This document shows, piece by piece, positions 34,049 to 35,439 of a stretch of 35,556 bases of DNA. The stretch is from Clostridiales bacterium (GTDB taxonomy: Bacteria; Bacillota; Clostridia; Oscillospirales; Acutalibacteraceae): positions 1 through 35,556 of the forward strand of contig JAILFM010000110.1 of assembly GCA_024697575.1 (NCBI GenBank), in the 5' to 3' direction. The notes beneath the pieces are model-generated. The model worked only from the letters and a program-made list of their open reading frames with translations. It ran no database searches and was not told where the DNA came from. A program made the translations under genes and the position numbers. Within the stretch, counting starts at the first letter, position 1; the number at the start of each line of letters is the position of its first letter.

Positions 34049-34360
34049 TTAAAGCTTGATTTCGATTTCGACGCCTGCGGGAAGCTCAAGACCGGTCAGA
34101 GCTTCAACTGTTTTTGCCGAAGGTCTGAGAATGTCGATGAGTCTTTTGTGTGTTCTCTGTTCAAACTGCTCGCGGCTGTCCTTATACTTGTGGACTGCGC
34201 GAAGGATGGTGACGATTTCCTTCTCTGTGGGAAGGGGAACGGGGCCGGAAACGTCCGCGCCTGTTCTCTTGGCCGTCTCTACGATTTTCTCAGCCGACTT
34301 GTCGACGAGAGTGTGATCGTAACCTTTGAGTCTGATTCTGATTTTTCCCTTTGCTGCCAT
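34049..34360 (-). CDS. rpsJ: 30S ribosomal protein S10
   Basis: '[43 protein letters not shown]'. Confidence 0.98.
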
Positions 34361-34789
34361 TGAAATGCCTCCTTAAATTTGGCGGGCACGCAAAACTTGC
34401 AAACCGACCCGGGTGTTTCAACCCTTCCGATTCAAAAACCGGAAAACACTTTCCGGGTTCGGCGATTGCCGTTTGCTGATAATATTCAATCCGCACAGAC
34501 ACCGTTCGGGAAAACGACGGGGCTGCTGCCGCCATACGGCTTGCACGTATTTTCCATCATTATGCTCAAACCTGCACAGTCTGAGGCAAGAAACCTCATC
34601 GCAAGTAACCGTGTCTTTGAGCACCATGACGGAAAACCATCGGCAGGCCGCAGGGCCCGGATTGAACCGCCCGGTTTGAAATCGGACATACTCCGCGGAA
34701 ATTCCCCGCCTCTCGGGCGGCCACCTCCCGCATCATCGCATATCTGCATGCCTGAAAATGGGCATAGTTATCCCTTTTTTACGGCGTGC
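34361..34789 (-). promoter_or_regulatory. Long structured 5' leader of the S10 operon (candidate cis-regulatory RNA)
   Basis: Non-coding interval between a good promoter and rpsJ; contains several hairpins, including 22-nt near-complementary arms (34616-34637 / 34549-34570) and a terminator-like hairpin. Confidence 0.7.
34434..34456 (-). terminator. Putative attenuator terminator in the rpsJ leader
   Basis: Minus strand CCGGAAA-GTGT-TTTCCGG (34456-34439) followed by TTTTT (34438-34434). Confidence 0.6.
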
Positions 34790-34795
34790 TCGGGT

Positions 34796-34824
34796 ATATT
34801 ATCATAATTAATATATAAAGTCAA
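34796..34824 (-). promoter_or_regulatory. Promoter of the ribosomal supercluster
   Basis: Minus strand TTGACT (34824-34819), 17-nt spacer, TAATAT (34801-34796). Confidence 0.7.
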
Positions 34825-35124: not shown

Positions 35125-35439
35125 ATGATAGGACTCGGCACCTGGACATGCGGAATATCGACTCCGCTCGTCAAAGACAAGGCGGTTTTTACTATTTCCG
35201 ATGACAACGGTAAATACAAAATTTCACTTAAAATCAAAACATGGGATATCGAATCCCTGCCGATAGTTTCGGCAAAGGAATTCGGCAACACCCTACAGGT
35301 GCGCGTCTCAGGTGAAATCTACAAACCCGGCACCTTCGCCGAGTCGGAAATGACCTTCGACGGCGACGAGCTCACCGGCTTCATCATCCTCCCCCTCCTC
35401 GGCAAACTCAAGCTAACCGACGGAAAAAGGGTGAAATGA
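35125..35439 (+). CDS. Hypothetical protein, 104 aa
   Basis: ATG preceded by GGGAG; no confidently recognised family. Confidence 0.65.
   Translation: MIGLGTWTCGISTPLVKDKAVFTISDDNGKYKISLKIKTWDIESLPIVSAKEFGNTLQVRVSGEIYKPGTFAESEMTFDGDELTGFIILPLLGKLKLTDGKRVK

Follow-up and report, generated by a model that had tools for sequence, protein, structure and literature searches.

A putative autoregulatory S10 operon leader from a gut-associated genus of Clostridia, with a class-wide 3' domain and a clade-specific hairpin

Described S10 leaders and the 5' domain of the locus

The Firmicutes S10 motif reportedly goes back to a founding paper by Yao in 2007. Rfam family RF03136 (S10-Clostridia) represents the Firmicutes S10 ribosomal protein leader, which was extended to the Clostridia by Eckert and Weinberg (2020; PMC7247131). 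In E. coli, the leader of the same operon is long and structured, contains a Rho-independent terminator, and mediates an established autoregulation by ribosomal protein L4 that acts by transcription attenuation with NusA and also on translation; the uL4 site is not widely conserved even within the gamma-proteobacteria (PMC10931766). A further candidate structure from the Clostridia, the rpsJ motif RLC-47-1, lies in the S10 5' UTR and has been described from three genera of one family, the Peptostreptococcaceae (PMC11109978). The L20 leader of the B. subtilis infC operon, another ribosomal protein leader, which uses transcription attenuation (cited in PMC10931766), serves here only as a model of how such a device works, as its operon and ligand are different and no sequence relation is claimed.

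The leader analyzed here lies in a window of 35,556 nucleotides (contig JAILFM010000110.1 of assembly GCA_024697575.1, a Clostridiales bacterium of the Acutalibacteraceae), where it precedes the gene series rpsJ-rplC-rplD-rplW-rplB coding for S10, L3, L4, L23, and L2 (Table 1). Judged by its sequence, the 5' part is the known S10-Clostridia leader, and the leader as such is not new. RF03136 gave the single match of the window and was the only family to reach its cut-off in the Rfam scan of the leader, with 41.9 bits (gathering cut-off 35.1 bits) over the full model (positions 1–81) and at the same place upstream of rpsJ; relative to the E. coli leader, the difference noted is this lack of any other Rfam family above its cut-off. 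Among 120 genomes sampled from the family, 102 matched this domain. The first-pass annotation, which had proposed an Rfam search and suggested a lineage-specific analogue of the L4-regulated leader, was right in placing a structured S10 operon leader with an attenuator-like terminator here, but the full-length RF03136 match removes the novelty of the 5' domain and with it the new analogue as a whole. The RF03136 model comprises only 81 positions, whereas the leader of the window extends beyond it by a class-wide 3' domain and a clade-specific hairpin, termed module 2.

Table 1. Coordinates of the leader features and of rpsJ in the window.
Feature	Position	Strand	Basis or remark
Promoter TTGACT-17-TAATAT	34796..34824	(-)	9/12 consensus match; start site inferred near 34789
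5' leader hairpin AUGCC/GGCAU	34749..34765	(-)	Sequence
Rfam RF03136 S10-Clostridia ribosomal protein leader domain (presumed r-protein sensor)	34667..34744	(-)	cmscan
Clade-specific long hairpin (module 2)	34549..34638	(-)	~20-bp helix, conserved CUUGCGA apical loop
Hairpin with constant UUCCC loop, stem varying between congeners	34502..34520	(-)	Alignment, by eye
Closing helix, 5' strand GCAAAC	34471..34476	(-)	Pairs with 34404-34399; permutation test
Terminator-like hairpin CCGGAAA-GUGU-UUUCCGG	34439..34456	(-)	Sequence; class-wide conservation; stem covaries
U-tract, predicted premature 3' end	34434..34438	(-)	Sequence
Conserved GAAACACCCGG, 19 nt 3' of the terminator hairpin, absent from Rfam	34409..34419	(-)	Comparison
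Closing helix, 3' strand GUUUGC	34399..34404	(-)	Permutation test
Shine-Dalgarno region AAGGAGGC of rpsJ	34367..34374	(-)	Sequence
rpsJ (S10), first gene of the operon	34049..34360	(-)	ATG at 34360

The promoter claimed at first reading was found in place, although it is a weak consensus match in a region that has seven promoter-like sites (2.2 expected). In the leader alignment, congeners carry -35 boxes, mostly TTGACA, and -10 boxes at the equivalent position. The strong structure ascribed to the RNA upstream of rpsJ was borne out by a predicted folding energy of -177.9 kcal/mol for the 440-nt leader, as compared to -150.4 ± 5.7 kcal/mol for shuffled sequences (z = -4.8), with none of 100 shuffles folding as well. 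In the alignment, most congeners have a counterpart of the 5' leader hairpin with a AAUUAUGCCC-like segment, and UAAGGAGGC in the Shine-Dalgarno region is present in 26 of 26 aligned leaders. Coding by the leader was rejected, because the lengths of its modules vary by 1–2 nt among congeners and no frame is conserved. The hairpin with the UUCCC loop is situated between module 2 and the attenuator, and its loop could form a pseudoknot with a GGGAA in the Rfam domain; neither partner varies within the genus. A CCGCC 5' of the GGAGG ribosome-binding site of rpsJ (34386-34367) is near-constant within the genus and could pair with it, masking the translation start. Divergent from the leader, a 104-aa open reading frame (35125-35439, plus strand) had no match to an NCBIfam family.

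The 3' domain and its closing helix

The CCGGAAA-GTGT-TTTCCGG-TTTTT element that had been read as an intrinsic terminator was recovered as a conserved G+C-rich hairpin followed by a U-tract inside the leader (34456-34434). Leaders from about 20 families within the order have such a hairpin and U-tract at the homologous place, as do leaders from other orders of the class. The layout in other families comprises the hairpin, the U-tract, a GAAACACxCGG sequence starting 17–20 nt after the hairpin, and then GUGU or similar, with the GAAACACxCGG being near-invariant across the class Clostridia. A model of hairpin, U-tract, and GAAACACxCGG (R2), applied to 196 genomes of the class, had matches in 74, a single one in each except for three genomes, among them the genome of the window with its second copy (see below); the R2 loci that were read (L110-L139) all lie upstream of rpsJ, and genomes of other classes of the phylum had no match. 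Terminator stems of very different sequence (e.g., GCCCAGG/CCUGGG) precede the same GAAACACCCGG in other orders. Scanning the window leader and those of ten relatives against Rfam yielded no family over this region. Going by these sequence comparisons, the "terminator" is part of a larger 3' domain that is found across the Clostridia and lies outside the Rfam model. The lineage specificity suggested at first reading thus holds for the long arm of the leader and fails for the attenuator, as its homologue and the conserved partner sequence occur throughout the class. The RLC-47-1 motif could overlap this domain.

The stretch immediately before the terminator hairpin and the one immediately after GAAACACxCGG are complementary. 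In a permutation test in which partners were shuffled between sequences, this closing helix obtained z = 4.9 (0 of 300 permutations) with 45 sequences from other genera of the order and z = 5.1 (0 of 300) with 17 sequences of the genus, and control segments yielded z = 0.2 (downstream window) and z = 2.1 (further upstream). Comparison thus shows the predicted closing helix to be supported by covariation in the order and in the genus. No coupling at the place used in this order was detected among 19 sequences from other orders, many of which pair the 3' strand with a segment approximately 15 nt after the Rfam domain (z = 2.4, 5 of 500), e.g., ACUGUACAC/GUGUACAGU, with ACAGUACA/UGUACUGU as a compensated variant of this upstream helix.

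Other pairings within the 3' domain found no general support. A downstream CCGG that might pair with the CCGG arm of the terminator as an antiterminator was rejected as a general rule, as the arms change while GAAACACCCGG remains constant; its late transcription would also make it unfit for this role. For a local CAC/GUG hairpin around GAAACACxCGG, changes were one-sided only (permutation z = -0.2), and a pseudoknot between the loop and the sequence behind the U-tract reached z = 2.3 within the order in a single register, a weak and post hoc signal that is absent in other orders. RNAalifold was uninformative here, as indels misalign the stems in the MAFFT alignments of the 3' domain.

A plain terminator would not need the conservation of GAAACACxCGG at a fixed spacing behind the U-tract, and the closing helix spans the hairpin and, by eye, can extend within the family as far as the CGCC just 5' of the ribosome-binding site. 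Both features would suit a purely structural element of the 3' domain that controls rpsJ translation, for example by the alternative CCGCC/GGAGG pairing. However, a G+C-rich stem and four to six U are retained even in leaders with a different stem sequence, in line with selection for termination, so that a hairpin without terminator function appears possible but unlikely and a transcription attenuator is the reading followed below.

Module 2 and its distribution

An alignment of 26 leaders of the genus revealed module 2 as an insert, about 70–90 nt long, which lies 3' of the Rfam domain and 5' of the attenuator and is shared by some other congeners; leaders of congeners that lack it are correspondingly shorter. 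The arms GTTTTCCGTCATGGTGCTCAAA (34637-34616) and TTTGAGCATAATGATGGAAAAT (34570-34549) pair in the way first proposed, and the apical CACGGU/ACUGUG stem is present as well as UGAGG/CCUCA, a small extra stem of the window copy. Paired cells amount to 97.7%, and both sides changed in 20 cells (4.2 ± 2.1 for shuffled sequences). In the apical helix, all five pairs are compensatory, whereas the covariation in the two long helices rests on few pairs because both are almost invariant and vary mainly by wobble pairs; the CUUGCGA loop is invariant. Mean pairwise identity is 0.75 in module 2, 0.64 at third codon positions of rpsJ, and 0.68 and 0.61 in the two flanks, where shuffled sequence gives 0.58 and 0.57. 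Module 2 is, as far as comparative data can tell, a real, covarying hairpin outside the Rfam model. The expected conservation and covariation of the arms were thus found, but in one clade of the genus only, which narrows the original claim without refuting it.

Near-random sequence around the modules between congeners and the lack of module 2 in most genomes of the genus would be in line with an ordinary RF03136 leader whose additional parts are unselected linker. This is contradicted by the covariation and above-neutral conservation of module 2 and by the class-wide conservation of the 3' domain, and is therefore very improbable. A role as a mimic of 23S rRNA was also rejected, the local similarity score of module 2 against 23S rRNA fragments of one order-level relative being 20.0 (shuffled sequences 20.6 ± 1.9). 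As a separate observation, the 23S rRNA matches of the single-contig genome G044 are scattered, with the 5' parts occurring twice and the remainder once (L153-L160), which is either an odd arrangement or an assembly artefact.

Typical substrates of RNase III are helices of roughly 20 bp. All carriers fold module 2 as a nearly continuous helix of about this size with small internal loops, and instead of binding a regulatory protein it might thus serve as a processing site of the RNase III type, where cleavage detaches the sensor from the mRNA or determines the half-life of the latter. Cutting based mainly on shape would need less sequence conservation than is observed, as both strands and the CUUGCGA loop lie well above the neutral yardstick, and we consider a processing site rather doubtful.

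A covariance model built from 13 copies (R1) detected module 2 in 14 of 45 genomes of the genus and, where checked, always in the S10 leader. Thirteen genomes have one copy each, and the genome of the window has a second one. In the remainder of a sample of 295 genomes from the order, no true copy was found: R1 matches elsewhere in the order were weak and on inspection proved to be unrelated inverted repeats, and opposite-strand matches were the hairpin matching its own complement. A pattern scan with one genome per species (84,980 species) found module 2 on 13 contigs, all of metagenome-assembled genomes and labelled as Ruminococcaceae, Clostridiaceae, or Clostridia and most of them corresponding to members of the genus, and found it nowhere else. 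The names of several isolates point to the gut of herbivores (goat omasum, reindeer, horse faeces, and the RUG/RUI rumen series). In the phylogenetic tree, the carriers form one clade nested in the genus (branch support 83/79), with the non-carriers and outgroups outside, which requires one change. Because of this single nested clade, the simplest history would be a single recent gain within the genus. An inverted repeat gained once could in principle be a mobile element that had landed in the leader, but copies occur only in S10 leaders and at no other locus, which leaves a mobile repeat with hardly any credibility.

The second copy in the assembly of the window lies on contig C157 in the leader of a second S10 operon start (L031, leader approximately 1227-1726), which has the RF03136 domain, module 2, and the 3' domain. 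This operon start shares 78.5% DNA identity over 3 kb with the window and forms a separate long branch in the tree; C157 probably represents contamination by another species within the genus rather than a true second operon. Independently of the leader, one genome of the order (G152) carries an inverted repeat of about 80 nt (CCCGTCAT...CTGACGAAAAATCTGAC) in three near-identical copies, and a related repeat occurs in a second genome of the same genus (G111; together L075, L076, L078, L079); this family is unrelated to the leader.

Proposed mechanism and significance

The interpretation that we regard as fairly probable is a putative S10 autoregulatory leader in a gut and rumen genus of the Clostridia, which would combine a sensor, an attenuator, and a 3' domain of the readthrough transcript in series and into which module 2 was inserted once. 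The RF03136 domain would act as the sensor, to which excess ribosomal protein binds, most likely L4 encoded by the third gene, rplD; the choice of L4 as ligand in Clostridia is taken from the analogy with E. coli (PMC10931766). Formation of the hairpin and U-tract (34456-34434), the presumed transcription attenuator, would be favoured when the sensor is occupied. A possible switch is offered by the 3' strand of the sensor, CCGGGC, which by eye is complementary to the 5' arm CCCGG of the terminator: an unoccupied sensor could hold the terminator arm and permit readthrough, and an occupied one would free the terminator to form. Covariation is silent on this competition because both strands are near-invariant.

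In the readthrough mRNA, the terminator hairpin, the U-tract, and GAAACACxCGG would be closed by the long helix into the 3' domain. As the downstream half of this domain is transcribed only after the U-tract, too late to affect termination there, it would act after the termination decision, and it more probably tunes the translation or stability of the long mRNA or serves as a binding site. Module 2 lies between sensor and attenuator, and the conservation of its loop and strands suggests a specific partner, which may be a protein or a nuclease. More tentatively, and with less confidence than the serial arrangement itself, one may envisage a two-input device, in which the common S10 sensor and the uncatalogued class-wide 3' domain were joined in one clade by another protein-binding hairpin, which would feed a new signal into S10 operon control.

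So far, the S10 leaders of Clostridia are catalogued only by their 81-nt 5' domain. The new elements are the conserved 3' domain outside the Rfam model and the clade-specific module, both with putative roles. Located between the sensor and the operon and conserved at fixed spacing across orders, the 3' domain is the most likely candidate for carrying out the regulation, which makes the output step testable. Module 2, in turn, would provide a phylogenetically placed example of a ribosomal protein leader that gained a new module.
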